38,417 nt of DNA from a virus. The notes under the pieces were generated by a model. It was given only the letters and a program-made list of their open reading frames with translations. It made no database searches and was not told the DNA's origin. Position 1 is the stretch's first letter. Each line of letters starts with the position of its first letter. The stretch lies in the IMG/VR virus record IMGVR_UViG_3300049927_000012, positions 1 to 38,417 of that record, one strand, 5' to 3'. This document shows positions 5,137 to 38,417 of this stretch, in pieces. The position numbers were made by a program, and so were the translations under genes.

Positions 5137-5342
5137 GCACCAAAACCCCGGGCGTGTACAGGCGCCTGATCGCATTCTTCGAGGCCAACCCCGATGAGGA
5201 ATTAACGCGGGCCGACATCATCGTGAAGTTCGACGCAAGCACCAAGAACGTCGATGCCGCGCTGAGTCGCGCGCGGCTTGAGAGGCGCATTGAATCCGTG
5301 CATGCGTACCGGGTGCCGGTCATGAAACGGGGGGCGAAATGA
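5133..5342 (+). CDS. Small winged-helix-like protein (69 aa)
   Basis: ATG 5133 has an excellent GGAGG ribosome-binding site within the previous gene's 3' end. Residues 1-60 (YRRLIAFFEANPDEELTRAD, then SRARLERRIESV) read as a compact winged helix: helix, ELTRADI turn, recognition helix (KNVDAALSRARLERR), then a basic tail. It probably binds DNA. It overlaps the resolvase gene by four bases. Confidence 0.65.
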   Translation: MSTKTPGVYRRLIAFFEANPDEELTRADIIVKFDASTKNVDAALSRARLERRIESVHAYRVPVMKRGAK

Positions 5343-5785
5343 TCCAAGTCATCATCCCCGGCCAGCCCCAAGCGAAAGGCCGCGCCAAGATCGTCAAGAT
5401 CGGCGGCTTCTCGCGCATGGCCACGCCAGCGAAGACGGTCGCCTACGAAGGCCTCGTCGCCCTCTGCGCCCAGGAAGCGCTGCGCGGCGCCCCGCTGTTC
5501 GACGGCCCGGTGCGCGTGCGCATGAACCTCTGGTGCCAGACGCCCAAGAGCCTGACGAAGCGCGAGCGCGCGGACATCGCCACCGGCGCCAAGCGGCCGA
5601 CCACGAAGCCCGACATCGATAACGTCGTGAAGGCCATCTTCGACGGCTTCAACGGCGTGCTCTGGCGCGATGACGTTCAGGTCGTGGAGCTCACCGTCTC
5701 CAAGCACTACGCCCCCAACGCGCCGAGCGTCGTGGTCAACGTCGAGAGCATCGTGGTGGCGGACTTGATCGCGGAGACTGCATGA
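5339..5785 (+). CDS. rusA: RusA-family Holliday-junction resolvase
   Basis: A 148-aa protein, close to the 120-150 aa usual for RusA enzymes. It has the N-terminal GQPQAKGRAK segment, a TP-KT-YE motif (residues 29-37), the catalytic KPDIDN (D92 and D94) with K98 and D102, then NGVLWRDD-VQV (D111, D112) and K122. RusA dimers cut four-way junctions made during recombination and replication, preparing branched phage DNA for packaging. It is coupled to both neighbours by ATGA overlaps. The RecE-like exonuclease in the leftward operon is the likely partner pathway. Confidence 0.93.
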   Translation: MIQVIIPGQPQAKGRAKIVKIGGFSRMATPAKTVAYEGLVALCAQEALRGAPLFDGPVRVRMNLWCQTPKSLTKRERADIATGAKRPTTKPDIDNVVKAIFDGFNGVLWRDDVQVVELTVSKHYAPNAPSVVVNVESIVVADLIAETA

Positions 5786-6000
5786 CATGCCTGGACTGCG
5801 ATCTCGCCGCGAAGAAGCGGCACCACGGCTTTCGCTCCGGCTGCCAAGGCTGCGCAGCCCGCTCGTTGGTGCGCAGCCCGCACTGGCGCCGCGTGCAGGC
5901 TGCAGGCGTGCAGGACAGGCCCTACCGCGCCGCGCTGGCTCAGTTCGGGCTGACACACGAGCAGGTCAAGGCTGCCGCGGCTGCGGACAAGGCGAGCTAG
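5782..6000 (+). CDS. Small zinc-finger protein (72 aa)
   Basis: Starts in the resolvase stop (ATGA). CLDC (residues 3-6) and CQGC (residues 21-24) make a four-cysteine zinc site, followed by a basic SLVRSPHWRRVQAAG helix and a C-terminal helix (QFGLTHEQVKAAA). Probably a nucleic-acid or protein adaptor; exact role unknown. Confidence 0.7.
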   Translation: MTCLDCDLAAKKRHHGFRSGCQGCAARSLVRSPHWRRVQAAGVQDRPYRAALAQFGLTHEQVKAAAAADKAS

Positions 6001-6002
6001 TC

Positions 6003-6152
6003 GTGACCCTGACGCTCGTCCCCAAGGGCCGCGGTAACTGGCGCCGCATGACGATGACCGTCGAGGACGAGCGCGGCGGCCTGGTCATCCTCGCCGGGCA
6101 AACCCTCACGCTGGGCGGCATCGTCTGGCGGATCACGAAAGTTGAACCATGA
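6003..6152 (+). CDS. Small conserved phage protein (49 aa)
   Basis: Uses GTG 6003, two bases after the previous stop. The sequence is a short all-beta protein (TLTLVPKGRGNWR near the start, ILAGQTLTLGGIVWRITKVEP near the end) of a type I recall in other phages at this position. No function known. Its end overlaps the next gene by four bases. Confidence 0.65.
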   Translation: MTLTLVPKGRGNWRRMTMTVEDERGGLVILAGQTLTLGGIVWRITKVEP

Positions 6153-6538
6153 CCATGAAGCCCGTTCCCTGCCTCAAGTGCGCCGGTGGCGGCATCGTCG
6201 ACTTCGACCACGCCAGGCCCGGCCACCTCATCCCCGCATGCCCGTCATGCCTGGGCTCAGGACTGCTCGACGCCGATCCGTCGCCGCCGTACCGCGCCGC
6301 CTGGCTGGTGGGCTCGCGCTTCGTTGTGCGCCTGACTGTCGAACTGCCGCTGAAGGAGTACCACGAGCTGAACACCGACTGGTACCCGTTCTATCCGCCG
6401 AAGCAGGGCAAAGGCATGCTGCGCACTGCGGAGAAGCGCGACCACCATGCCGGCATCACCGCGGCGCTGCAGCAGCTCAAGGAGCTGACCGGGGCGCGCG
6501 GCGACTTCTCCGTGACGACGGCTGACGAAAGGCATTGA
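6149..6538 (+). CDS. Zinc-ribbon protein with DnaJ-like CxxCxGxG motifs (129 aa)
   Basis: Residues 8-38 contain CLKCAGGG and CPSCLGSG, a pair of CxxCxGxG-type knuckles like the DnaJ zinc centre, which probably bind one zinc. The remaining 90 residues are mixed alpha/beta (WLVGSRFVVRLTVELPLKEYHELNTD split across 50-75). There is no J-domain. The start is ATG 6149 by overlap with the preceding stop. Function unknown. Confidence 0.75.
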   Translation: MTMKPVPCLKCAGGGIVDFDHARPGHLIPACPSCLGSGLLDADPSPPYRAAWLVGSRFVVRLTVELPLKEYHELNTDWYPFYPPKQGKGMLRTAEKRDHHAGITAALQQLKELTGARGDFSVTTADERH

Positions 6539-6540
6539 GC

Positions 6541-6816
6541 ATGCTCCCCATCGACTGGCCCAAGATCATCGAGGAAATCGCCGACCGGCTCGGCGAGGAA
6601 GACCCTGTGTGTCCGGGCCAACGCATCCCCTGCAGCGGGCGCCCGCTCGCGGCCCAGCTCAGCCAGCCGCGCTCCACGCTGCAGGGGTGGATCGACGGCA
6701 GTGAGCCGAAGCACGCCGACGGCGAGGCGCTGCTTGATCGCTGGTCTCAGCTCACTGGGAAGGCACGCATCTTCGCGCCCAGGGAACAGCGCTCGCTGTC
6801 GGCTGCGAAGCTGTAG
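6541..6816 (+). CDS. Helix-turn-helix protein, candidate late-gene regulator
   Basis: This 91-aa protein begins MLPIDWPKIIEEI, a signature of phage HTH proteins. The segment LAAQLSQPRSTLQGWIDGSEP (split about residues 37-57) is the HTH with a typical recognition helix and wing, then a helix (GEALLDRWSQLTG). It is the last early gene, and the first copy of the bipartite GGACTGGAWTCC element starts 2 bp after its stop. That makes it a natural candidate for the protein recognising that element. ATG 6541 is preferred over TTG 6535. Confidence 0.7.
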   Translation: MLPIDWPKIIEEIADRLGEEDPVCPGQRIPCSGRPLAAQLSQPRSTLQGWIDGSEPKHADGEALLDRWSQLTGKARIFAPREQRSLSAAKL

Positions 6817-6817
6817 C

Positions 6818-6851
6818 GGACTGGAATCCGGCCAGCGCGGCGGCTGACCAT
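6818..6851 (+). promoter_or_regulatory. Bipartite late-element copy 1
   Basis: GGACTGGAATCCGGCC, then 12 bases, then GACCAT. The same layout recurs at 11956 and 25896. It lies in the only gap between the early genes and the virion module, 38 bp before ATG 6890. The GGAATCC core is palindromic. GGAATC to GACCAT is 17 bp apart, like a -35/-10 pair with a non-consensus -35, as expected of an activator-dependent promoter. Confidence 0.5.
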
Positions 6852-6889
6852 GCCGGCCTACTGCCACCCAGCACGCATAGGAGCGCCGC

Positions 6890-7270
6890 ATGTCCCGATC
6901 TTCCGCCCTCAAGGTTCAAACGCCGGGCGCTCCGCCCGAGGCTGGCACCACCCAGCCCGCACAGGAGCAGGACTCGGACGAGGACCAGACTCGTGACCTC
7001 ACGGCGGGCGCAGACGACGTCGACGCCCTGAAGCGCAAGCTCACCGCCCTCGAAGCCAAGAACGCCGAACTGCAGGCCGACCTCGCGAGCAAGGCGAAGT
7101 CCAGCATCATCTACGAGCCCGAGACGCCGCACGGCAAGCTGCGCTTGGCCGCCAGCGATACCGGTACCATGACCGTCGCTGCGGTGTCGGCGGCCATCAA
7201 AAATGGCAAGCTCGCCGAGCCGATCACGAACTACCTCTGCGCCGACGGCCACTACTGCCGGCGCGGCTGA
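6890..7270 (+). CDS. Virion-module hypothetical protein with coiled coil (126 aa)
   Basis: The first gene after the early/late gap, with ribosome-binding site AGGAG. Residues 1-42 are disordered, acidic and Q/P-rich; residues 43-70 (ALKRKLTALEAKNAELQADL) are a coiled coil; the C-terminal 55 residues form a small beta-rich domain ending CADGHYCRRG. Position before the portal suggests a head-assembly or minor virion role, not shown by any motif. Confidence 0.65.
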   Translation: MSRSSALKVQTPGAPPEAGTTQPAQEQDSDEDQTRDLTAGADDVDALKRKLTALEAKNAELQADLASKAKSSIIYEPETPHGKLRLAASDTGTMTVAAVSAAIKNGKLAEPITNYLCADGHYCRRG

Positions 7271-7282
7271 TCCGGGGTCATC

Positions 7283-7723
7283 GTGGGCTGGTTCAGCGGA
7301 AAAACCTTCGGCGTCCTGGCGGCCCTCGGCCCGATCCCGGCCATGATGTCGGTGCAGCACGACGCGCAGAAGGAACAGGCCGCGGCTCTGCGGTCGATGC
7401 ACGACGAGGACGCACGCAAGGCGGCCGAGGCTGAGACGGGCGCCGCTGTTGCAGCCAACGCCCAGATCGCCGAGTCGAAGCGCCGCCGCCGGTCCAGCGC
7501 GCTCGGCCTAGGCGATGACAGCGCAACGGACACGCTCGGTGCGCCCACCGGGGCACTGGCGGGCGGCGCATCCGCAGCGTCTCGCTCGCTGGCCGCGTAC
7601 TACAGCGGCGGCACCAGCTACGGCGGCACGGCACTCGGTGCAGGCGCCAGCGTGAGTTCTGGGCCGCGTCTGTCCTACGGCGGCGGCGGTGGCCGCGCCC
7701 CGACCTCGAGCAAGGTGGTCTGA
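7283..7723 (+). CDS. Putative minor virion protein, Gly/Ser/Ala-rich (146 aa)
   Basis: Reads from GTG 7283 (MGWFSGKTFGVLAALGPIPA), a hydrophobic N-terminus followed by a charged helix (residues 24-70, rich in A, E, K and R). A low-complexity C-terminal half (S/G/A with repeated Y-GG) ends next to the portal gene. It looks like the small hydrophobic plus glycine-rich proteins seen upstream of podovirus portals. Function unknown. A later ATG could be the true start. Confidence 0.6.
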   Translation: MGWFSGKTFGVLAALGPIPAMMSVQHDAQKEQAAALRSMHDEDARKAAEAETGAAVAANAQIAESKRRRRSSALGLGDDSATDTLGAPTGALAGGASAASRSLAAYYSGGTSYGGTALGAGASVSSGPRLSYGGGGGRAPTSSKVV

Positions 7724-7725
7724 GC

Positions 7726-9327
7726 ATGGCCGCCTTCGCCAACCTCAAGCGCCGCCTGACCAGGCTCAAGACCCTGCGCCAGCCTCACGAGCAGGTCTGG
7801 CGCGATTGCTTCGACCACTCGTGGCCGATCCGCGGCTCCGGCCTGCAGAGCAGCTCCCCGCTCGACGCGCAGCAGGCCATGGATCGCAAGGCCCGCCTAC
7901 TGCACAGCGTTTCCACGGACGCCGCACGCACGCTGGCCGCCGCCATCGTCTCCGGCGCCGTTCCGCCAAGCTCGGTCTGGGCGTTGCTGGACGTGACCGG
8001 CGCCGACCCCGATGCACTGACCTGGCTCGAGGACAAGGGCAAGCAGCTACACGAGGAAATGCACGCCAGCACCTTCGACGCTGCGGCGATCGAGTGCGCC
8101 ATGGATCTGGTCGCCGGCGGCTGGTTCGCGCTGTACGTCGATGTCGACCGCAAGATCGGTGGCCTGACGTTCACGCAGTGGCCGCTTGCCAGCGTCTATG
8201 CCGCAACCTCGAAGGCTGGCGGCCTGGTAGACACGGTGTTCCGCGAGTACGTGCTGACCGCCGAGCAGTGCATGACGGAGTTCGGCGCCGACAAGGTTTC
8301 GGGCGACGTGCTGAAGAAGTTCAACGCCGATCCGGACACGCCCGTCACGATCTGCCACGCGATCTACCCGCGCGCCATGTACGTGGTCGGCTCGCGTCTG
8401 GCGCGTAACCTGCCGATCGCGAGTTGCCACTTCGAGGTCGAGTCCGAGCACGAGCTGCGCGAGAGCGGCTATCACGAGATGCCGGTGATCGTGCCGCGCT
8501 GGACGGTGATCCCCGACAGCGTCTATGCCGTTGGCCCGATGTTCGACGCGCTGCCAGATGCGCGCGAGCTCAACGCATTCCTGGGCATGGATAAGATGAA
8601 CAGCGAGCTGGCCGTGGCCGGCATGTGGATCGCCGAGGACGACGGCGTGCTGAACCCGCGCACCGTCAAGGTCGGCCCGCGCAAGGTCATCGTAGCCAAC
8701 AGCGTCGACTCGATGAAGCTACTTTCCGCCGGCGGCAACTGGCAGTTGGCCAGCGAGCGCATCGCGCAGTACGAGGGATCGATTCGTCGCACGCTGATGG
8801 CTGATCAACTGCAGCCGATGGATGGTCCGTCGATGACGGCCACCGAGGTGCACGTTCGCGTGAGCATGATTCGCCAGCTGCTCGGCCCGATCTACGGCCG
8901 CCTGCAGGCTGAGTGGCTTGCGCCGATGGTCGAACGCTGCTTTGGGCTGATGTTCCGCGCTGGCCTGTTCGGTCAGGCGCCGGACGCTCTCGGTGGCCAG
9001 AGCTTCCGAGTTCGCTACAACAACCCGCTGGCGCGCGCTCAGAAGTCCGACGACGTGGGAGCGATCGAGCGCCTGAACCAGAACATCACGCTCATCGCCC
9101 AGATCGCGCCCGAAGCAAAGGACGTCGTCGACTTCGACGAGCAGACCCGCACGCTGGCCGAATCGCTCGGTGTTCCGCTCAGCACCATGCGCACGCCCAA
9201 GCAACTCGACGCCTTCCGCAAGGCTCGCGCCGATCAGCAGGCCGCGCAGCAGCAGCAGGCGCAGAACCAGCAACTTGAAACGATGGCCGCTGACGCGCAG
9301 AACCAGCGCTCTGTCAAGGCCGCTTGA
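7726..9327 (+). CDS. Portal protein (T7 gp8-type head-tail connector)
   Basis: 533 aa, almost the length of T7 gp8 (536). The N-terminal region (RLKTLRQPHEQVWRDCFDHS, residues 10-29) and RKARLLHSVSTDAARTLAAA (about 54-73) are family hallmarks, followed by the central clip/stem domain and a glutamine-rich disordered C-terminus (QQAAQQQQAQNQQ). Twelve copies form the ring at the unique capsid vertex through which DNA is packaged and ejected. The upstream stop is two bases away. Confidence 0.93.
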   Translation: MAAFANLKRRLTRLKTLRQPHEQVWRDCFDHSWPIRGSGLQSSSPLDAQQAMDRKARLLHSVSTDAARTLAAAIVSGAVPPSSVWALLDVTGADPDALTWLEDKGKQLHEEMHASTFDAAAIECAMDLVAGGWFALYVDVDRKIGGLTFTQWPLASVYAATSKAGGLVDTVFREYVLTAEQCMTEFGADKVSGDVLKKFNADPDTPVTICHAIYPRAMYVVGSRLARNLPIASCHFEVESEHELRESGYHEMPVIVPRWTVIPDSVYAVGPMFDALPDARELNAFLGMDKMNSELAVAGMWIAEDDGVLNPRTVKVGPRKVIVANSVDSMKLLSAGGNWQLASERIAQYEGSIRRTLMADQLQPMDGPSMTATEVHVRVSMIRQLLGPIYGRLQAEWLAPMVERCFGLMFRAGLFGQAPDALGGQSFRVRYNNPLARAQKSDDVGAIERLNQNITLIAQIAPEAKDVVDFDEQTRTLAESLGVPLSTMRTPKQLDAFRKARADQQAAQQQQAQNQQLETMAADAQNQRSVKAA

Positions 9328-9344
9328 TTCCACAGGAGGCCACC

Positions 9345-9659
9345 ATGCCCGGTCCTATCGCAAAAGGTTCTTTCGACAGCGGCAACGCGACGGTCGGCTC
9401 TGCCAACGTAGCCGGCGAGGTCATGTGCACGCCCACCGGGGTGACTAGCATGAAGCTCACGCTCACCGGCCTGGACGCCTCGAACACGGTCAAGACGCAG
9501 AAGCGCACGGCCGGCGGCGCGTTCGCCGACCAGACCACCTACAACTCGAACCAGGCCGCGGTTGGCGTGACCGTCGCAGCGGGCGAGGAATGGCGGGTCG
9601 TCTGCATCACGCAGCAGGCGATCAAGGAAATCCAGTACACCCTTTCCTGCGAGAGCTGA
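9345..9659 (+). CDS. Putative small virion beta-protein (104 aa)
   Basis: ATG 9345 has a perfect AGGAGG site. The composition is all-beta (alternating V/T/S, almost no long helices), typical of a decoration or minor head protein. It lies between portal and scaffold, where T7 has no equivalent, together with the next gene. No family identified. Confidence 0.65.
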   Translation: MPGPIAKGSFDSGNATVGSANVAGEVMCTPTGVTSMKLTLTGLDASNTVKTQKRTAGGAFADQTTYNSNQAAVGVTVAAGEEWRVVCITQQAIKEIQYTLSCES

Positions 9660-16915: not shown

Positions 16916-17461
16916 ATGTGGATGCAGATTTTCGGTGCAGTTGCCCAAGGCGGCGGCAAGATGATGTCGAGCGCGAGCAGCTATGCCAACGTCAAGCAGA
17001 CTGCCGACCAGGAGCTGTACGACGCCGACGCAGCCGAGAAGCAGGGGCAGAACCAGGCGGCACTCATCCGCCGCGCCGGAAAGCGCGTTCTCGGCCAGCA
17101 GCGCGCCGGCTACGCGGCCTCCGGTGTGCAGGTTGGCGAGGGCAGCGCTGGTGAGGTTGAGCGCGAGACGGTAGTCGACACCGAGCACGACGCCTTCCAG
17201 GCGATCCTGAGCGGCCAGCGTCAGGCGCTCGCGCTGCGCACGCAGGCCAAGCTGCAGAAGATACAAGGCAAGGCCGCGCTGACATCCACACTGATCGACC
17301 CGCTGATGTCAGGCGGCGGCGCTGGCAACGTGATGTCGGGCTGGAAGACCTATAAGCCAACCTACAACAGCCAGGCGGCGCAATCGGTCGGGATGGGTGG
17401 CGGCAGCGGATCCTATGGCTATACCGGCTCCGACACCTTCGACAACTCGAACATGGGCTGA
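16916..17461 (+). CDS. Internal virion protein (T7 gp14-like)
   Basis: 181 aa (T7 gp14 is 196). Residues 20-135 are helical (QTADQELYDADAAEKQGQNQ, GKRVLGQQRAGYAASGVQVG, then QRQALALRTQAKLQKIQGKA), the pattern of podovirus ejection proteins that form the outer-membrane part of the DNA-injection channel. The C-terminal 40 residues are Gly/Ser/Tyr-rich. It follows the nozzle gene, as in T7. Confidence 0.8.
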   Translation: MWMQIFGAVAQGGGKMMSSASSYANVKQTADQELYDADAAEKQGQNQAALIRRAGKRVLGQQRAGYAASGVQVGEGSAGEVERETVVDTEHDAFQAILSGQRQALALRTQAKLQKIQGKAALTSTLIDPLMSGGGAGNVMSGWKTYKPTYNSQAAQSVGMGGGSGSYGYTGSDTFDNSNMG

Positions 17462-17464
17462 TCC

Positions 17465-19531
17465 ATGGCAACCATTCCCCGCACCGGACCTGACCTGAGC
17501 ATCGGAGGGCGCATCGCCGCGCCAGCCCCGGACGTCAACCCCGGCATCATCGACGTCGCCGGGCGCGCGCTCCAGAACGCAGGTGGCGCCCTGACCGAGG
17601 TGGGCGGCGACATTCGCGCCGAGCACGACAGGCGCGCGCACATGGACATGCTCTACGCGCAGCAGACGCGCGCCGCGGCGATCGACGCGCAGAGCATCAC
17701 CGCGCTCACCACGGGCCGGGACCAGTTGGCCGATCTGCACGACACGATCACGCAGGGCGTCATCGACGGCAGCGTGCCCAAGGATGGCGCGGAAGCGGCC
17801 TACGCCTCGAAGTCGCGCGAGCTTCTGGACAATGTCGACCAGAACCTGCCGCAGGAGGCGCGCAACCGCGTGACCGCTCAGCTCGGCGGCGATGCCGCGC
17901 GCTTCGGCAACACGGTACGCCGCGCAGTCACGCAGCGTGATCGCATGGATGTCACGTCGGGCATCGGCCAGACGCTGGAGAACCTGCAGCGATCGTTCGC
18001 CGCCGACCCAGAGGGCGCGACGAAGCAGGCCGTGGACACGGTCGACGCGCTCGGGCCGCACTCGACGCTGACGCCGGAGCAGCAGACCAAGACGAAGCAG
18101 GCTTGGAAGGAGAACACACAGTACACCACCGGCTACGGACTGGTGACCGCCGGGCGCAACGACCGCAAACAGCTCGACCTGGCCGAGGGCGTCATCACCG
18201 ACGGGTTGCCCGACCTCGACCCGCAGAAGCGCGCCCAGCTCCTGCGCGAGGTCGAAACGTCGCGGATGCATCTCGACCAGAAGGACGAGATGGCCGTCGC
18301 GCGCGCGCAGCGCGAGTGGGAGCGCCTCATGAAGCAGGCGGAAACCTCCTACAACGTGATGCAGGGCATGGCCGACAAGGGCACGCTGCTTGATCCGCAA
18401 TACACCCAGCAGGTGATGCAACTGACCGCCGGAACGCCGTACCAGGCCGGCGTCGTGGCCCTCGCCAAGCAGGCCAAGGACGGCGCCGGCTGGGCCGCGC
18501 AGCCGATCTCGTCGCAGCTTGCCGCGCTCGATCAGGTCAACAGCCAGATAGCGACCAATGGCCGCACACCCGAACTCGACGCGCGCAAGAATCAGCTCGA
18601 GAAGATCACGAACGGCAGCATCGCCGACGTGAAGCGCGACCCGATGCGCGCCGGCCTGGAGCGCGGCGTGATCACCGACCTGCAGCCGATGGACTGGAGC
18701 CACGGCATGCCCGGTGTCGTGGCGCAGATACAGCAGCGCCTGCCCGGCGCGCAGCGAGTGGGCATGTGGGCCGGTCAGCCGGTGTCTCCGCTGACGGCCG
18801 ACGAAGCCGAGCACCTGCAGGGCGCGCTCTCCGCGCTGGCGCCGAAGGATCGCTCCACCATGATCGCCAGCATCGCCACGTCGATCGGCCCGCAGGCGTC
18901 CCAGGGCCTGGCCGCGCAGATGGATCCGAAGGACAAGGCGCTGGGGCTGGCGTTCGGATACGCCGGCATGCAAACCACTTTCGGGCGCTACACCTCGGAG
19001 CTGGTGCTGGCGGGCCAGAAGGCCAAGGCGGACGGCACCAGCACGAAGGGAGAGAAGTCGCCCGACCTCAAGGTGTCCGGCTGGCAGGCCTACATCACGG
19101 ACGAGCTCGGTGGCGCGTTCCCGGCCGAGACGCAGAACACCCAGGTTCGAGACGCCGCGGTGCTGATCGCGCACGCCATCGCGGCCGAGAAGGGTGGCGA
19201 ACTGTCCAAGGACGACATGAATCGCGCGGTCACGCTCGCCTCAGGCGGCCCGGTCGTCGACCTGAACGGCCGCAAGGTGCCGCTGCCGGCCGGCATGGAT
19301 GAGGGCATGCTGCAGCGCCGCCTGAAGGGCGTCAGCCCGCAGGAGCTGTCCGCGCAGGCGCCCGGCGGTCAGGTGATCGCTGGCGGCGTGCCGATGTCGC
19401 TGGCCGACTTCACCCACAGCCTGCCCGGCCAGCAGTTGCTCTACGCTGGGCCCGGCAAGTACGCGGTCATCGTCAGCGGTCGGCCGGTGAAGAGCACCGA
19501 CGGCAAGAACATCCTGATCGGGGTGCAGTGA
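17465..19531 (+). CDS. Internal virion protein (T7 gp15-like)
   Basis: 688 aa (T7 gp15 is 747). Almost entirely alpha-helical after a proline-rich N-terminus (PRTGPDLSIGGRIAAPAPD), with long Q/E/K-rich helices, as expected of the periplasm-spanning ejection protein. It has no enzymatic motif. Sits between the gp14-like and the gp16-like proteins, in the T7 order. Confidence 0.8.
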   Translation: MATIPRTGPDLSIGGRIAAPAPDVNPGIIDVAGRALQNAGGALTEVGGDIRAEHDRRAHMDMLYAQQTRAAAIDAQSITALTTGRDQLADLHDTITQGVIDGSVPKDGAEAAYASKSRELLDNVDQNLPQEARNRVTAQLGGDAARFGNTVRRAVTQRDRMDVTSGIGQTLENLQRSFAADPEGATKQAVDTVDALGPHSTLTPEQQTKTKQAWKENTQYTTGYGLVTAGRNDRKQLDLAEGVITDGLPDLDPQKRAQLLREVETSRMHLDQKDEMAVARAQREWERLMKQAETSYNVMQGMADKGTLLDPQYTQQVMQLTAGTPYQAGVVALAKQAKDGAGWAAQPISSQLAALDQVNSQIATNGRTPELDARKNQLEKITNGSIADVKRDPMRAGLERGVITDLQPMDWSHGMPGVVAQIQQRLPGAQRVGMWAGQPVSPLTADEAEHLQGALSALAPKDRSTMIASIATSIGPQASQGLAAQMDPKDKALGLAFGYAGMQTTFGRYTSELVLAGQKAKADGTSTKGEKSPDLKVSGWQAYITDELGGAFPAETQNTQVRDAAVLIAHAIAAEKGGELSKDDMNRAVTLASGGPVVDLNGRKVPLPAGMDEGMLQRRLKGVSPQELSAQAPGGQVIAGGVPMSLADFTHSLPGQQLLYAGPGKYAVIVSGRPVKSTDGKNILIGVQ

Positions 19532-21222
19532 TGCCGTTCGATGATCTGTACCAGAACGACACGAACGCCGCTATCAATGCGATGGACCTGCGGCCCGCGG
19601 CGCCGGCGCAGAACCAGCGCAGCGCCTGGAGCGCGCCGTGGCGGGCGGTGAAGGCCGCCGCGGCTGATGTCGCCGGCAGCATGGCCGACCTGGGCAAGTC
19701 CTACGCCGCGGCGTCTGCGATGACGCTGGAGTCCGATCCGATCGCGCGCCAGACCATGGATCCGCAGTACCTGCACGAGGGTGCCGAGGAAGGCCGGCGC
19801 CAGATCTCCACGGGCGAGGCCATGACGTCGGAGATCGGCCAGGTGGCGCGCAACTACTCGCGCTCGCTACGACCTGACCCGATGACGGCCGGAACCGCGG
19901 AGAAGGTCATCTTCGGCGTCATGCGCCCGGTGTCCAAGCTGGTGGCGGGCGGCATGCTAGCGGGCCCGTTCGGCATCGTCGGCGCCGCCGGCGAGGAAGG
20001 TCTGACCACGTCGGACGACCTGCGCGCAGAGGGCGTGGACTTCGCGACCCGAGCCAAGATCGGCAGCCTGACGGCGGGCGTGACGGCGGCGACGGCCTTC
20101 GCGCCGCTCGCTGGCCCCACGCTCAGGGCGACCGCCGCGCTGTACGTGGCCGGCGGTCCGGGCGCGTTCATGGCGCAGCAGGCCGCCACGCGCGCGATCC
20201 TCGAGCACGCGAACTATCCCGACCTGGCCAAGCAGTACGACCCGCTCGACCCGGTAGGCCTGGCGGTGTCGGCGCTGATTCCGCTGCCGTTTGCGGCGCA
20301 CGGCGCGATGCGGGTCGCTGGTTCTACGCGAGGATCGGTTACCCCCGTCCACGCTCCAGACGGCGTTGTCGACGCTGCGCTGACGCACAACCTGACGGTG
20401 CAGGCCGACCAGCACGCCGCGATCGATCCGGTGTTGGCGGGCACGGAGATGGCCGACAACATCGCCAGAGAGCGAGCACCACAGGCCGTTCCACGTGAAA
20501 CCGCGACGGCTATCGAACGCAACACGGTTCGCGTCGTCAAGAAGGAGGACGGCAGCCTCGACGTGGAGGCGACCCTTGCGAATCTGCCGCCGGTAGCCGA
20601 TGGCGAAGTGCGTCTGTTTCGCGGCGAGTCGCCAACCTCCAAGTTCAGCGACGTCTTCAATCCTGAAGCGCTGACAAGGCACCGCGCATCGGACATTCCA
20701 GGCCAGCGCTATTCCACTGAGCTGTCCGTCGCCGACTACTACCGGGACGCCTACGACGAAAACCGCGACGCCTCAATCCACTACATCGACGTGCCCGAGG
20801 CTGTCGCAGAGCATGGGCGTGTCAGCGACGACGAGATCAAGGTCGACCTCAACGCCGTGAACCAGCGCCGAGCGCGCGGCGACATGACGCCACCACCGAA
20901 GCGCGCTGCTGACACCGAAACTCCAAGCGCCGCCAAGACGGCTTCGGCGCTCGACCAGAACCGTCTCACCGGCGCGGAGGCGCCGCCCGGCGCCGTCAAG
21001 GCCGACCCGGTGCAGCAAGTCGTTCATAGCCGCGTTTCTCAGCTCGAAGCCTTCGCTGGCGACATGCCGGTGCGCGTCGATGATGCGGGCAAGACGGCGA
21101 CCGTCAGCGACGAGATCGCGCGCATCAAGCAGGAGGTCAACGAGGGCACCGACACCGAGCTCGGGCACCAGGACGCCGACCTGCTACGAGTCGCCGCCGA
21201 GTGCGCGCTGTCGCTCAGCTGA
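19531..21222 (+). CDS. Internal virion protein with ADP-ribosyltransferase-like segment
   Basis: 563 aa, in the place where T7 has the N-terminal part of gp16. Residues 115-260 hold three hydrophobic segments (VAGGMLAGPFGIVGAAG; TAGVTAATAFAPLAG; LAVSALIPLPFAA) that could insert into the inner membrane. Residues 355-445 look like an ADP-ribosyltransferase of the R-S-E type: R364 in LFRGES, S395-T396 in YSTELSVADYY, then IHYIDVP and an acidic site at D433-D434-E435. Codon use there is less GC-rich than around it. No lytic transglycosylase motif is seen. I prefer ATG 19531 over the GTG one codon earlier. Activity is unproven. Confidence 0.7.
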   Translation: MPFDDLYQNDTNAAINAMDLRPAAPAQNQRSAWSAPWRAVKAAAADVAGSMADLGKSYAAASAMTLESDPIARQTMDPQYLHEGAEEGRRQISTGEAMTSEIGQVARNYSRSLRPDPMTAGTAEKVIFGVMRPVSKLVAGGMLAGPFGIVGAAGEEGLTTSDDLRAEGVDFATRAKIGSLTAGVTAATAFAPLAGPTLRATAALYVAGGPGAFMAQQAATRAILEHANYPDLAKQYDPLDPVGLAVSALIPLPFAAHGAMRVAGSTRGSVTPVHAPDGVVDAALTHNLTVQADQHAAIDPVLAGTEMADNIARERAPQAVPRETATAIERNTVRVVKKEDGSLDVEATLANLPPVADGEVRLFRGESPTSKFSDVFNPEALTRHRASDIPGQRYSTELSVADYYRDAYDENRDASIHYIDVPEAVAEHGRVSDDEIKVDLNAVNQRRARGDMTPPPKRAADTETPSAAKTASALDQNRLTGAEAPPGAVKADPVQQVVHSRVSQLEAFAGDMPVRVDDAGKTATVSDEIARIKQEVNEGTDTELGHQDADLLRVAAECALSLS

Positions 21223-21391
21223 GGATGGCCGACAGCAGCAGGGCCACCAGAACCAGCGCGAGAGTCAGAACGGCCCAGATTTTCACGTAGCGCATAGCGC
21301 CGCGCCAGTTGCCAGCGGCGCCCAGTCCGGCGAGCATCAGCACCGCGAGCGCGGTAAGCGCAAACCAGACGACAGGAAGGAAACGACCCAT
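21215..21391 (-). CDS. Antisense two-helix membrane protein (58 aa)
   Basis: On the minus strand, ATG 21391 to stop 21215 encodes MGRFLPVVWFALTALAVLML, a GNWRG turn, then a second helix (KIWAVLTLALVLVALLLSAI). Two transmembrane segments with a basic loop make it look like a small holin or other membrane protein. It fills the 167-bp gap between two large plus-strand genes exactly, its start sharing CCATGG with the next plus-strand start. The plus strand has no plausible gene in the gap. The ribosome-binding site is weak and no promoter is obvious, so it is uncertain. Confidence 0.5.
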   Translation of the reverse strand: MGRFLPVVWFALTALAVLMLAGLGAAGNWRGAMRYVKIWAVLTLALVLVALLLSAILS

Positions 21392-23927
21392 GGCAATCGA
21401 CCCGAAGTGCGCCGCAGCAGTCCGAGCCGCGGCGGCAGGCCGCAAGCTCAGCGGCGATAAGCTCAACACGCTGAGCAACGCACTGGATTCTGCGGCCCGC
21501 GACCTCGCCCGGCAAGACCCGCCTCGCTGGCGCGCGCTCACGCGCGACCAGCGCATGGCCGAGGCCTTGGACAAGGCCATGGCCGACGTTCATGGCGAGG
21601 CCACCCTGAAGGAGCACCGCGCCAACCTGCAGCTTTTACGCGCATCGGAGACGGATGCCCGCATCGCCGAGCAGATGCGCCTGGGCAAGACGACGCGGTC
21701 AACGGCGCAGGTTCGCGACATCGAGAACACCATCGACTACGGACACTCCGTTCGCGATGAGGCGATCTCGGGCCTGAAAGATCTGGTCGACGCCGCAGAA
21801 TCGAAGGACGGCACCGGCAAGCTGAGAAACCTCGGCATGCGCATCTTCGACCTCGACAATCCGATGATGACCGCCGACATCGTGCGCGAGATCTTCAAGT
21901 CCGCCGATGGCAGCACCGGCAGCGCGGAGGCCCGGGCCGCGGCGCGCGCCTGGTTGGACACCATCGAGGGCATGCGCCAGCGTTTCAACGCCGCCGGCGG
22001 CAACGTCGGGAAGCTCGCCTACGGCTATCTCTCGCAGGCGCATGACGCGGTGCGCGTGGCCGCCGCCGGCGCGGAGGCATGGGCCGCCAAGGTACTGCCG
22101 CTGCTCGATCGCCGCCAGTACCTGAAGGAGGACGGCGCGCTGATGAACGACGGCGAGGTGCTGGACCTGCTGCGCGCCGCGCACGACACGATCGCCACCG
22201 GTGGCCAGAACAAGACGCTGCCCGGCCAACCCAAGGGCACCGGCGCGCGCGCCAACCGCGGCAGCGAGGGCCGCGTGCTGCACTTCAAGAACGGCGACGC
22301 CTGGATGGCCTACATGGACGACTTCGGCGAGGGCTCGCTGTACGACGCGATGATGGGCCACATCGGCTCCATGGCCCGCGACATCGCCCTCGTGGAGCGC
22401 TACGGCCCGAATCCGGCGCAGGTCTTCAAGCTGCAGAACGACCTCTCCGAACGCGCCGACGGCAAGGGAACCCTCGCCAACCGAACCATGGGCAACGTGC
22501 CGCAGGCGTACTGGGACATCGCCACCGGCGTGACCGGATCGCCCGAGAATCGGCTCATTGCGCGCGTCGGCGCAGACATGCGCAACATCCAGACCGCTGC
22601 CAAGCTGGGCGGCGCCGTGCTGGCGTCGACCGCTGACGTGGGCACGATCGCCTCGTCGATCCACTACAACCGCCTGGACTACTTCCGGATGCTGTCCAAC
22701 ATCGGTCGGCGGCTCAAGCCCGGCAGTGATGAGCGCGACTTCCTGCAGGCGCACCAGGTGATCGCCGAATCGCTGACCAGCACGCTCAACCGCTGGACGG
22801 GCGACAACATGACGCACAGCCTGACCGGGCGCGTCGCCGCTTCGGTGATGAAGCTGTCGCTGATGAACGCCTGGACGGACGGATTGCGCGGTGCGTTCTC
22901 GGCCACCATGATGCAGGGATTCGCGAAGAAGCTCGGCAAGGCCTGGGGCGAGCTCGACGAGTGGGACCAGTACCTCATGGGCCGCAAAGGCATCACCGAG
23001 GCCGACTGGAACATCATCAGCCAGTCGGCGCCGGCGGAACGCAGTGGCCAGCAGTACCTGAGCGCGGCTGAGGTGCGCAAGATCGACGCCGAGGGCGCAC
23101 AGCAGGCAGCCAGCAAGTGGGCTGCGTTCGTCAGCGACGAGTCGCAGTTCGCCGTGCTGAACCCGGACGCGGCCACGCGCGCAATCGCCACCGGCGGCGG
23201 GATGCCGGCCGGCACACTGCGCGGCGAGGCGGCGCGCTCCATCGCCCAGTTCAAGAGCTTTCCCATCGCCATGCTGACGCGCCACTGGCGCCGCATCCTC
23301 GAGACTCCACAGGGCCTGGAGGGCGCGCCGACAGGCTACGGGGCGAAGACTGGCGCCGGCGCCGTGGTCAATCGCGTGGCGGGCCTGGCCGCGCTCAATG
23401 TCACGCTGATGATGCTCGGCGCCATCGTGATGCAGAACAAGGCGCTGGTGCTGGGCAAGGATCCCTACGACATGACCGATGGGAAGTTCTGGGCACGAGC
23501 CCTGACCCAGGGTGGTGGCCTCGGCTACGTCGGCGATCTGCTGTTCAAGGATCCGACCGACCAGCGTGGAAACACCTACGAGCAGGCCGCGGGCGCCGCG
23601 TTCGGGCCGGTGGCTGGCGCCGCATCCGGCCTGGTGATGGATCTCGGCTTGGTCAACGCGTGGGAACTGGCGAAGGGCAAGACCACGCACGCGGGAGCAG
23701 AGGCAATTCGGTGGGTTAACGGACAGCTCCCCTACGTCAGCCTCTGGCAGGTGCGCGCGCTGTGGGAGCGCGCATTCCTGTTCCAGGCGCAGGAGGCAGT
23801 GAGCCCGGGCTACTTGAGCCGCATGATGCAGCGCGCTCAGCACGACTGGCACCAGGGCTACTGGGCGCCGCCGGATCAGGTGGTTCCGGAGAGGGCTCCC
23901 GATTTCGGCAAGGCTGTCGGACAATAG
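21390..23927 (+). CDS. Large internal virion protein (T7 gp16 C-terminal-like)
   Basis: 845 aa, helical, with conserved ejection-protein features near the end (SIAQFKSFPIAMLTRHWRRI, about 614-633) followed by hydrophobic segments (LAALNVTLMMLGAIVM; AAFGPVAGAASGLVMDLGL). Together with the 563-aa protein upstream the length (about 1,408 aa) approximates T7 gp16 (1,318 aa), suggesting one protein split in two. The start at ATG 21390 has a GGAAGG site. It is the probable inner-membrane component of the ejection channel. Confidence 0.8.
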   Translation: MAIDPKCAAAVRAAAAGRKLSGDKLNTLSNALDSAARDLARQDPPRWRALTRDQRMAEALDKAMADVHGEATLKEHRANLQLLRASETDARIAEQMRLGKTTRSTAQVRDIENTIDYGHSVRDEAISGLKDLVDAAESKDGTGKLRNLGMRIFDLDNPMMTADIVREIFKSADGSTGSAEARAAARAWLDTIEGMRQRFNAAGGNVGKLAYGYLSQAHDAVRVAAAGAEAWAAKVLPLLDRRQYLKEDGALMNDGEVLDLLRAAHDTIATGGQNKTLPGQPKGTGARANRGSEGRVLHFKNGDAWMAYMDDFGEGSLYDAMMGHIGSMARDIALVERYGPNPAQVFKLQNDLSERADGKGTLANRTMGNVPQAYWDIATGVTGSPENRLIARVGADMRNIQTAAKLGGAVLASTADVGTIASSIHYNRLDYFRMLSNIGRRLKPGSDERDFLQAHQVIAESLTSTLNRWTGDNMTHSLTGRVAASVMKLSLMNAWTDGLRGAFSATMMQGFAKKLGKAWGELDEWDQYLMGRKGITEADWNIISQSAPAERSGQQYLSAAEVRKIDAEGAQQAASKWAAFVSDESQFAVLNPDAATRAIATGGGMPAGTLRGEAARSIAQFKSFPIAMLTRHWRRILETPQGLEGAPTGYGAKTGAGAVVNRVAGLAALNVTLMMLGAIVMQNKALVLGKDPYDMTDGKFWARALTQGGGLGYVGDLLFKDPTDQRGNTYEQAAGAAFGPVAGAASGLVMDLGLVNAWELAKGKTTHAGAEAIRWVNGQLPYVSLWQVRALWERAFLFQAQEAVSPGYLSRMMQRAQHDWHQGYWAPPDQVVPERAPDFGKAVGQ

Positions 23928-32612: not shown

Positions 32613-33559
32613 GGTGCTTCCTTCGCAGCGGGAGGGGTGGTGATGCCATGGGCGGCTTCGATGGCGCGAACGATGCGGAGACGCCCAGCACCAGACCAAG
32701 GTGCCGCGTCCTGCCAAACGGGCAGCATCTCGCATTCCAGTTGCGTCAGCGGCTCTCGCGCTACCTGGGGAGCGGACTGCGCTGTCGCGGATGGGGGTGC
32801 GGCGCGGCGTTCGATCATGTCGGCGATTCGCTGCGCCGCCGATTCCCATTCGGGTAGCGTGCAGGGCCGGCGTTCTTGCATGATTGCGCCGTAGATCAAC
32901 TTCCACAGGGGCAACCCATCACGGCCGGACACCGCCTCTGCCCGCGCTACCTGGGGCGGTTGCAGGGCTGCGGGTTGCGGGGGGGTGGCTGCGGCAAACG
33001 CAGCTTGCAAGCTCAGACGCGTAGCTTCGATAGGAGTGCCGTTGTGCCATTTGTCAGGCGCTTGATGCGCCGCATCAGTCTTGAACCAGTAGGCATCGTT
33101 AGCTGTGAGGTATGCCGCAATCATCGCGGGCGTCGGCTCGCTCGGCACCAGCACCATCCCCGGCTCCGCCTCCACTGCTACAGCCTGCCCGGCAAGGGAT
33201 GCGAGGCGAATAAGACCTGAAAGCACAGACCATTCACTGCCCAGCATGGCGCCGTGTCGGTGATACACGTCGAGCGCGATCCGCTGGGCTTCACGCTCGG
33301 CTTCGCTACTTGAGCATTCCAGCAGTTCAGCTTCCCATGCAGTGATCTCGGATTCCAATTCGGCAATCCGTTGCTCCTGCCCCCGGATGATGATGGCATT
33401 CGATTGCAACTCCGAGCGAACGTCCTCGCTCAAGTCCGCCACCACAGCCGGACTCCGACTTGCCGTCTCCGTATCCGGCGCTACGTACTTCTTGGCGTCG
33501 TCCTTTGTGCGGATCACCAGATCGCCGATGTGCTTCGTGTTGGATGCGGTCTTCGTCAT
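32609..33559 (-). CDS. Large mosaic early-region protein with coiled coil (316 aa)
   Basis: An AAGGA site precedes ATG 33559. Residues 55-90 are a coiled coil (RGQEQRIAELESEITAWEAE). Then comes PSEPTPAMIAAYLTANDAYW (about 140-160), a low-complexity Ala/Pro/Gln part, WKLIYGAIMQERR, and a C-terminal segment (LECEMLPVWQDAAPWSG). It looks stitched together from modules also seen in other variable phage early proteins. Function unknown. A GGGC-GGAA-GCCC hairpin lies just upstream. Confidence 0.65.
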   Translation of the reverse strand: MTKTASNTKHIGDLVIRTKDDAKKYVAPDTETASRSPAVVADLSEDVRSELQSNAIIIRGQEQRIAELESEITAWEAELLECSSSEAEREAQRIALDVYHRHGAMLGSEWSVLSGLIRLASLAGQAVAVEAEPGMVLVPSEPTPAMIAAYLTANDAYWFKTDAAHQAPDKWHNGTPIEATRLSLQAAFAAATPPQPAALQPPQVARAEAVSGRDGLPLWKLIYGAIMQERRPCTLPEWESAAQRIADMIERRAAPPSATAQSAPQVAREPLTQLECEMLPVWQDAAPWSGAGRLRIVRAIEAAHGITTPPAAKEAP

Positions 33560-33582
33560 GCTGTTCCTTGATGAATTTGGCA

Positions 33583-33594
33583 GGGCTTCCGCCC
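33583..33594 (-). promoter_or_regulatory. Intercistronic GGAA-tetraloop hairpin 1
   Basis: On the minus-strand transcript GGGC-GGAA-GCCC forms a stem closed by a GNRA-type tetraloop, 7 nt after the stop of the Gly-X repeat gene and upstream of the next gene's ribosome-binding site. A longer version occurs at 34316. There is no T-tract, so it is more likely an mRNA processing or stability element than a terminator. Confidence 0.4.
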
Positions 33595-33601
33595 ATCGGG
33601 T

Positions 33602-33949
33602 TTATTGGCCGTAGCCGTCGCCGGAGCCGGAGCCGGAGCCGTAGCCGTAGCCGTAGCCGGAGCCGGAGCCGTCGCCGTCGCCGTAGCCGTAGCCGTCGCC
33701 GTCGCCGTCGCCGTCGCCGGAGCCGGAGCCGGAGCCGTCGCCGTAGCCGTCGCCGTCGCCGTAGCCGTAGCCGTAGCCGGAGCCGTCGCCGTAGCCGTAG
33801 CCGTAGCCGTCGCCGTAGCCGTAGCCGGAGCCGGAGCCGTCGCCGTAGCCGTAGCCGTCGCCGTAGCCGTAGCCGGAGCCGGAGCCGTCGCCGTAGCCGT
33901 AGCCGTAGCCGTAGCCGGAGCCGTCCGTGAATACCTTATTTGTAGGCAT
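33602..33949 (-). CDS. Gly-Tyr/Gly-Asp/Gly-Ser dipeptide-repeat protein (115 aa)
   Basis: ATG 33949 has a perfect AAGGAGG site located in the 3' end of the DUF6948-type gene, so it is almost certainly translated. After MPTNKVFTD, virtually the whole protein is alternating Gly with Tyr, Asp or Ser (GYGYGDGSGSG patterns), ending in GYGQ. There is no hydrophobic core; it should be intrinsically disordered, tyrosine-rich and acidic. It resembles (G/S)Y(G/S) low-complexity domains only by composition. The array of 6-bp units can change copy number without frameshift. Function unknown. The plus-strand Ala-Val/Ala-Gly frame is a shadow. Confidence 0.8.
   Translation of the reverse strand: MPTNKVFTDGSGYGYGYGYGDGSGSGYGYGDGYGYGDGSGSGYGYGDGYGYGYGDGSGYGYGYGDGDGYGDGSGSGSGDGDGDGDGYGYGDGDGSGSGYGYGYGSGSGSGDGYGQ
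33605..33924. repeat. Hexanucleotide tandem array (GCC-NNN type)
   Basis: About 53 units of 6 bp, each GCCGTA, GCCGTC or GCCGGA on the plus strand, in blocks. They encode the Gly-X repeat on the minus strand. Prone to slippage and to assembly collapse, so the true copy number may differ. Confidence 0.95.
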
Positions 33950-34298
33950 TGATTGCCTCCTTGACGCCTGGCGCAGCGGGGATCAATTCGCACACGCCCG
34001 CCAGAGAAATCTGGGGGTTCATCGTGTCGAGCTTGCTGCCCGACTTGACGCCGTTCTGGGCCACACCCGACAGCGCAACGCCGTCCGCAGCCTTCCACGA
34101 CCAGAGCCGGCGAGAGTCCTTCAGGATGACGTTCTCTCCATCCGCGCTGACGACTTCGCCAGCGTGCACGCCTGCCGCATAGCAACGCGCGATCACGTAT
34201 TGGCCAACGAACGGATGCGGCTTCGCGCTTGCAATAGATGCTCCGAAGAGTGCGGCGAGTTGGCGGGCTTGGGCGATGGTCAGGTCTTCGATGTTCAT
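33936..34298 (-). CDS. DUF6948-type phage protein (120 aa)
   Basis: The sequence MNIEDLTIAQARQLAALFG, GQYVIARCYAAGVHAGEVVS, LKDSRRLWSWKAADGVALSG and a DTMNPQISLAG segment match a widely distributed family of unknown function in Burkholderia and Pseudomonas phages. It is a small beta-barrel-like domain. ATG 34298 has an AAGGAA site. Its final 14 bases overlap the start of the Gly-X repeat gene. Confidence 0.8.
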   Translation of the reverse strand: MNIEDLTIAQARQLAALFGASIASAKPHPFVGQYVIARCYAAGVHAGEVVSADGENVILKDSRRLWSWKAADGVALSGVAQNGVKSGSKLDTMNPQISLAGVCELIPAAPGVKEAINAYK

Positions 34299-37879: not shown

Positions 37880-38417
37880 GATTGCACCTCGATGAACGTC
37901 GGGGCCGCGCCGCGCATCAACGCAACGAACTCGTCGATCCACTCGACAGCCAACTTCGATGCCGAGTTGTTCTCGGGCATATGGCCGCGCGAGATCGCGA
38001 AGAAGAAGTTCTCGGCCGGACGCGAGCTATTCGGCGTCAAACCGGAGCCGAGCGCGTCGAATTTCTCACCGCGTGCGTTCGCGATCGTGCCCACCAAGCA
38101 AGCACAAGCACCTTTGTAGACAGAACCGTCAACACGGCCCTCGACAAGCGCAAGGCGCAAATCGGCGATCTCTCGCGGCGCGCGCAGGAGAACGTCGAAG
38201 ACGTCGGCCTTGATGATGCTCAGGTCGGCGCCGCGCAGGTCGGCGCCGCGCAGGTCGGCGCCGCGCAGGTTGGCGTCGCTCAGGTTGGCGCCGCGCAGGT
38301 TAGCGCCGCGCAGGTCGGCGCCGCGCAGGTCGGCGCCGCGCAGGTCGGCGCCGCGCAGGTTGGCGTCGCTCAGGTCGGCGCCGCTCAGGTTGGCGTCGCG
38401 CAGGTTGGCGCCGCGCA
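37876..38417 (-). CDS. Pentapeptide-repeat protein, C-terminal part (joins 1-437)
   Basis: Contains at least 13 further pentapeptide repeats, then a 110-residue C-terminal domain: [69 protein letters not shown]. That domain is strongly conserved among phage pentapeptide-repeat proteins I recall and probably caps the beta-helix. The CACLVGT segment with two cysteines could be a binding or catalytic site; nothing more is known. The next gene starts in its stop (GTGA). Confidence 0.9.
38219..38417 (-). repeat. 15-bp tandem repeat encoding pentapeptides (right part)
   Basis: Thirteen full units plus CGCA. One unit reads GGTTAGC instead of GGTTGGC. The final 19 bases equal the first 19 bases of the window, so the overlap could be 4 or 19 bp and the true repeat number is uncertain. 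Confidence 0.95.

Follow-up and report, generated by a model that had tools for sequence, protein, structure and literature searches.

A candidate R-S-E ADP-ribosyltransferase domain in the variable slot of a gp16-type ejection protein from an epsilon15-like phage

The window analyzed here is the whole 38,417-nucleotide stretch of the IMG/VR virus record IMGVR_UViG_3300049927_000012, across which no tRNAs or Rfam families were found. The gene of interest starts at ATG 19531 (a GTG in the same frame, at position 19528, falls within the 3' end of the upstream gene) and lies among virion genes that keep the gp14-gp15-gp16-gp17 order of phages epsilon15 and BcepC6B. Its product contains a segment resembling ADP-ribosyltransferases (ARTs). 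The features of the gene and its neighborhood are as follows:

16916..17461, plus strand: upstream internal virion protein, ortholog of epsilon15 gp14 (phrog_418, 9e-22; BLAST to epsilon15 gp14, 1e-5)
17465..19531, plus strand: upstream ortholog of epsilon15/BcepC6B gp15 (BLAST to BcepC6B gp15, 3e-33; to epsilon15 gp15, 5e-6)
19531..21222, plus strand: CDS of 563 aa, epsilon15 gp16-type ejection protein (phrog profiles, tblastn, synteny)
19531..20430, plus strand: conserved N-part, residues 1 to about 300, with hydrophobic stretches, PDP and GVD motifs, and QYDPLDP (BLAST)
20431..21015, plus strand: variable payload slot, residues about 301 to 495 (BLAST arms in relatives)
20551..20865, plus strand: ART-like segment, residues 341 to 445, with predicted strand beta1 EVRLFRGE, helix LSVADYYRDA, strand SIHYIDVP, and acidic DDEIKV (motifs, model with ART rows, profile and hhalign tests)
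20620..20622, plus strand: R364, candidate NAD-binding arginine of strand 1 (sequence; hhalign global alignment onto the H of H-Y-D ARTs)
20710..20718, plus strand: Y394-S395-T396, candidate strand-2 motif (sequence)
20827..20835, plus strand: D433-D434-E435, candidate [ED]-x-E catalytic acid (sequence; by-eye match to relative L061)
21016..21219, plus strand: conserved C-tail, residues 496 to 563, with invariant Cys558 (family alignment, BLAST)
21309..23927, plus strand: downstream virion structural protein, ortholog of epsilon15/BcepC6B gp17 (phrog_684, 2.5e-197; BLAST to BcepC6B gp17, 4e-173; to epsilon15 gp17, 1e-61)

In profile searches, phrog_1145, phrog_14422, and phrog_11561 matched the protein over residues 104 to 302, and tblastn linked it to BcepC6B gp16 (7e-15), SPN1S (5e-10), phiV10 (5e-8), and, weakly, epsilon15 gp16 (E = 0.1). 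By homology and gene order, the product is an ortholog of epsilon15 gp16 and BcepC6B gp16, of the ejection type. The first-pass annotation had placed it where T7 has the N-terminus of gp16; the ejection-gene position was upheld, and the T7 identity was replaced by the epsilon15/BcepC6B orthology on the basis of tblastn and synteny, the neighbors being orthologs of epsilon15 gp14, gp15, and gp17. The packaging/injection apparatus of epsilon15 includes gp15 and gp17/16 (PMC12391199), and this phage has been treated as having a gp16-like ejection protein (PMC8954989). The short-tailed phage described here probably packs its gp16-type protein in the head and ejects it into the bacterium.

Relatives of the protein differ mainly in the middle. 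N-part identity is 57 to 63% in the nearest ones, and seven close relatives from viral contigs have the N-part in common and, in most cases, the C-terminal tail, with a wholly different region in between. In a family set of 55 members, the N arm was detected by BLAST in 49 relatives, ending at residues 237 to 302, and both arms were detected in 21, at arm-to-arm distances of 10 aa (L017), 39 aa (L021), and up to 682 aa (L009). Three residues (G168, V169, and C558, the last encoded at 21202-21204) are invariant in all 55 members, including epsilon15 and phiV10; an alignment of the C-tail only (10 rows) was too divergent for scanning. Pfam domains in the 55 slots comprise SLT (13), ART-PolyVal (6), Zeta_toxin (4), ddrB-ParB (2), and YqaJ, GNAT, and RelA_SpoT (1 each), and 27 slots have no known domain. 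The ART-PolyVal domains, which are of the H-Y-D type, were profile confirmed in 6 of 54 relatives (L025, L039, L043, L046, L055, and L061). The slots of epsilon15, phiV10, and SPN1S contain no recognized domain, that of BcepC6B is a lytic transglycosylase, and that of Acinetobacter phage TPWB-05 combines a transglycosylase with ParB; other two-domain slots are found in L009 (zeta and ParB) and L182 (SLT and ParB).

On the N-part tree, SLT slots are clustered (3 changes for 13 rows), and ART-PolyVal slots require 6 changes for 6 rows, a number that shuffled labels also give. Members that are close in the N-part can have unlike slots, as in L025 (ART) versus L027 (none) and L055 (ART) versus L057 (YqaJ), and L026 (zeta) adjoins L077 and L080 (RelA, the L080 label being assigned by eye). 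This scatter and these pairs indicate that slot content turns over on a conserved carrier, and the near-empty slots of L017 and L021 imply that a gene of this kind can do without slot content. Comparison among relatives thus shows the gp16-type protein as a fixed N-part and C-tail around a slot into which different conflict-type enzymes of early infection are swapped, a context that strongly favors an effector domain in the slot of the present phage.

Several slots had further contents of their own. A RelA/SpoT-like domain occurs in L077 (2166-5207; PF04607, E = 6e-5), preceded by a ParB-like domain, and in L080 (2976-5204; by eye); it is possibly an ejected (p)ppGpp-type enzyme. In the slot of L059 (7213-7584), GNAT precedes a second ART-like stretch of the R type (KKLYRAVNGVD...ASWWTTD...IAVMDL) that matches no Pfam model, and the slot of L057 (5854-8676) contains an HExxH metallopeptidase-like stretch, recognized by eye, together with the YqaJ nuclease.

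The motifs reported in the first-pass annotation are all present in the 563-aa ORF, namely, LFRGE at residues 362 to 366, YSTELSVADYY at 394 to 404, IHYIDVP at 416 to 422, and DDE at 433 to 435. R364, S395-T396, and D433-x-E435 follow the order of R, then S-T, then [EQD]xE, and their R-S-E-like spacing (31 residues from R364 to S395 and 40 from S395 to E435) is short but plausible for an ART fold. By eye, the ART-PolyVal domain of L061 ends with GDDEFVVF at the strand equivalent to D433-D434-E435. A generic R-S-E pattern was recovered from 54 of 20,000 shuffles of residues 301 to 500 (0.27%) and from 5 of 646 real ORFs, T4 Alt and this protein among them. For the narrower pattern R...[YF]ST...A..[YF], 20,000 shuffles gave no occurrence, and the only other ORF to carry it, L135, had itself been retrieved with a related pattern. 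The base composition of the segment differs from its surroundings, as had been claimed, but the dip is modest: the GC content of residues 355 to 445 is 0.612 versus 0.71 for residues 1 to 300, which places the segment within the bottom 2.5% of 91-codon stretches from the structural genes, and GC3 falls only within the lowest 7.8% of equal stretches.

The profile search proposed along with the original annotation returned no Pfam or NCBIfam family for the segment at E values up to 10, PF03496 and PF18760 included. This result is weak evidence against an ART because T4 ModA, a proven ART that served as a control, also had no Pfam match (E up to 1). With an HMM of 11 H-Y-D ARTs drawn from relatives and Burkholderiales, the segment ranked 83rd of 10,001 (itself plus 10,000 shuffles, 82 of which scored higher) and 23rd against 1,107 ORFs, where 16 of those ahead were known ART carriers; the matched stretch is short (15 residues). 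With hhalign, 6 of 600 shuffles aligned as well as the segment in global mode and 4 of 600 in local mode. The global alignment, in an unprompted register, paired R364 with the ART histidine and YST with strand 2, and it matched VADYYRD and IHYIDVP to the helix and strand that follow, so that the strand-1 His of ART-PolyVal is replaced by R364.

Apart from the motif-selected L135, searches of 50,697 phage records, 72,556 plasmids, 399 Burkholderiales genomes, and viral contigs revealed no homologs of the segment: tblastn against the phages and plasmids gave nothing at an E value of 10, and neither a peptide scan of the viral contigs nor a PDB sequence search gave a match. Eight borderline matches in the 399 Burkholderiales genomes were all inspected and rejected as chance matches or out-of-frame ORFs, and a lead to phrog_18211 (E = 0.042, residues 383 to 424) was dropped because this family was found in 0 of the 399 genomes. 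Two degenerate DNA scans for RG..YST[DE]..A..Y yielded L135 as the only ART-like match, and its likeness is partly by construction because it was selected by motif. The L135 frame (5281-9471, minus strand) is open for 1,397 codons, its residue 1 is not a start, and its ART-like domain (LYRGF...NFSTDLSAAAYYSE...GTEEWVVFNRG) is recognized by no Pfam model.

Structure prediction and fold comparison, which had also been suggested, gave a divided answer. A guided model, built from a nine-row alignment that included ART rows, had a pLDDT of 61 overall and 71 to 87 over the first 30 residues, with a pTM of 0.53, and showed a strand-helix-strand arrangement with no coiled coil. Of its 28 PDB matches, 15 were ART-fold chains as counted from PDB descriptions (best E value, 2.4; none significant), and the model may have inherited this fold because its alignment includes ARTs. 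These chains comprise KptA/Tpt1, ParT, PARP10, PARP15, and IcmQ, the last being counted by its fold rather than by its description. Weak matches in BFVD include polyvalent proteins and a Mycobacterium phage protein annotated as an ADP-ribosyltransferase. The model predicted from the single sequence had a pLDDT of 38, gave junk matches, and did not resemble an ART.

Taken together, these observations suggest, on a modest balance of probability, that the segment is an active, compact, and divergent ART with an R-S-[D/E]xE site in the slot of a probably ejected protein; that it has an ART fold, whether catalytic or not, is the more probable claim. The initial description of an ART-like segment in an ejected virion protein is partly supported: the carrier is probably of the ejection type, the slot context favors an effector, and the ART identity itself is only suggestive. 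An ordinary structural linker or helical spacer with coincidental motifs is unlikely. Such a spacer would fit the filler-like slots of epsilon15, phiV10, and SPN1S, the chance rate of generic R-S-E patterns (0.3 to 1%), and the lack of homologs, but fewer than 1 in 20,000 shuffles produced the narrower pattern, the guided model is strand-helix-strand rather than coiled coil, enzymes are routine in the slot, and L017 and L021 indicate that a spacer of this length is not needed. It is also quite unlikely that the segment folds into an effector domain of a different, undescribed non-ART type: the variety of unrelated enzymes in the slot and the nonsignificant fold matches would agree with it, but the R/YST/[ED]xE order is kept and the weak fold matches are mostly to ARTs. 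Least likely is a decayed ART remnant that has lost catalysis and now only occupies the slot, for although the profile scores are low, the domain is shortened and lacks the GHDG region of ART-PolyVal, and slots without a known domain are common (27 of 55), R364, S395, and the [ED]xE acid are all present at plausible spacing, and the reading frame is open and shows no decay.

Among injected ARTs, T4 Alt is the prototype. Both Alt and the candidate ART have an R-S-E order in a protein delivered from the virion (probably so in this phage), with a proposed action at first host contact, but they have only motifs in common; Alt, an internal protein of a myovirus, is built differently and matches PF03496 (Alt/VIP2 clade), whereas the segment does not. 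The segment is similar to ART-PolyVal (PF18760, Tox-ART-HYD2; PMC5512222) in slot position, strand-helix-strand order, and the A-[DE]-x-Y helix motif and differs from it in having R364 for the strand-1 His and in lacking both the GHDG region and a PF18760 match (E up to 10). Epsilon15 gp16, BcepC6B gp16, and phiV10p19 have a homologous N-part and C-tail and the same gene order; the epsilon15 and phiV10 slots hold no recognizable enzyme and the BcepC6B slot holds a lytic transglycosylase, in contrast to the ART candidate here. Polyvalent proteins (Iyer et al. 2017) likewise lie among virion genes and include zeta, ART, ParB, RelA/SpoT, GNAT, and peptidoglycan hydrolase domains, but the gp16-type proteins are small and carry only one or two payloads, set between fixed arms, and the protein described here has one candidate effector domain, compared with the at least two per polypeptide that define a polyvalent protein.

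The commonest protein-modifying domain of polyvalent proteins is an ART of the H-Y-D type (PMC5512222), and only about 3% of siphoviruses and podoviruses are reported to carry ARTs (PMC9503650). R-S-E ARTs have been reported to be absent from polyvalent proteins. Epsilon15, phiV10, and BcepC6B are not mentioned in the main text of PMC5512222. The first-pass view that an injected toxin-like enzyme would be notable is overstated, since T4 Alt, an injected ART, and polyvalent ARTs have already been described (PMC5512222, PMC9503650); what is new is, at most, the presence of an R-S-E-type candidate where the ARTs of relatives are of the H-Y-D type.

In the favored reading, the N-part and C-tail would serve as delivery and assembly parts, and the protein, judging from its homology, would be released from the head after adsorption, either together with the DNA or before it. 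The slot domain would be placed where cytosolic NAD+ can be reached, and, by analogy with T4 Alt and polyvalent ARTs, it may modify some component of the host in favor of infection, a protein being the likeliest target. The range of slot enzymes argues that the carrier is exposed to both the periplasmic wall and the cytosol, because the transglycosylase needs peptidoglycan and the zeta kinase, RelA/SpoT, GNAT, and ART domains need cytosolic cofactors. We tentatively suggest, with some doubt, that the gp16-type protein serves epsilon15-like podoviruses as a natural carrier of payloads and delivers its slot enzyme into the host, in this case a minimal R-S-E ART. Slot enzymes requiring ATP, NAD+, or acetyl-CoA would then point to cytosolic exposure, and versions with a lytic transglycosylase would act on the periplasmic wall. 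If this is correct, T4 Alt-style R-S-E ARTs extend to podovirus ejection proteins, and a small, tractable ejectosome family with naturally empty and loaded versions could serve as a test system for asking whether ejection proteins deliver enzymes to the cytosol and which host functions are attacked at phage entry.

Elsewhere in the window, a pentapeptide-repeat protein on the minus strand (1-400 and 38128-38417) runs off both contig ends, and the record looks like a circular or permuted genome that was opened within the pentapeptide-repeat array. A low-complexity ORF at 33548-33973, also on the minus strand, encodes GYGYGDGSGSG repeats in 12- and 18-nt units.
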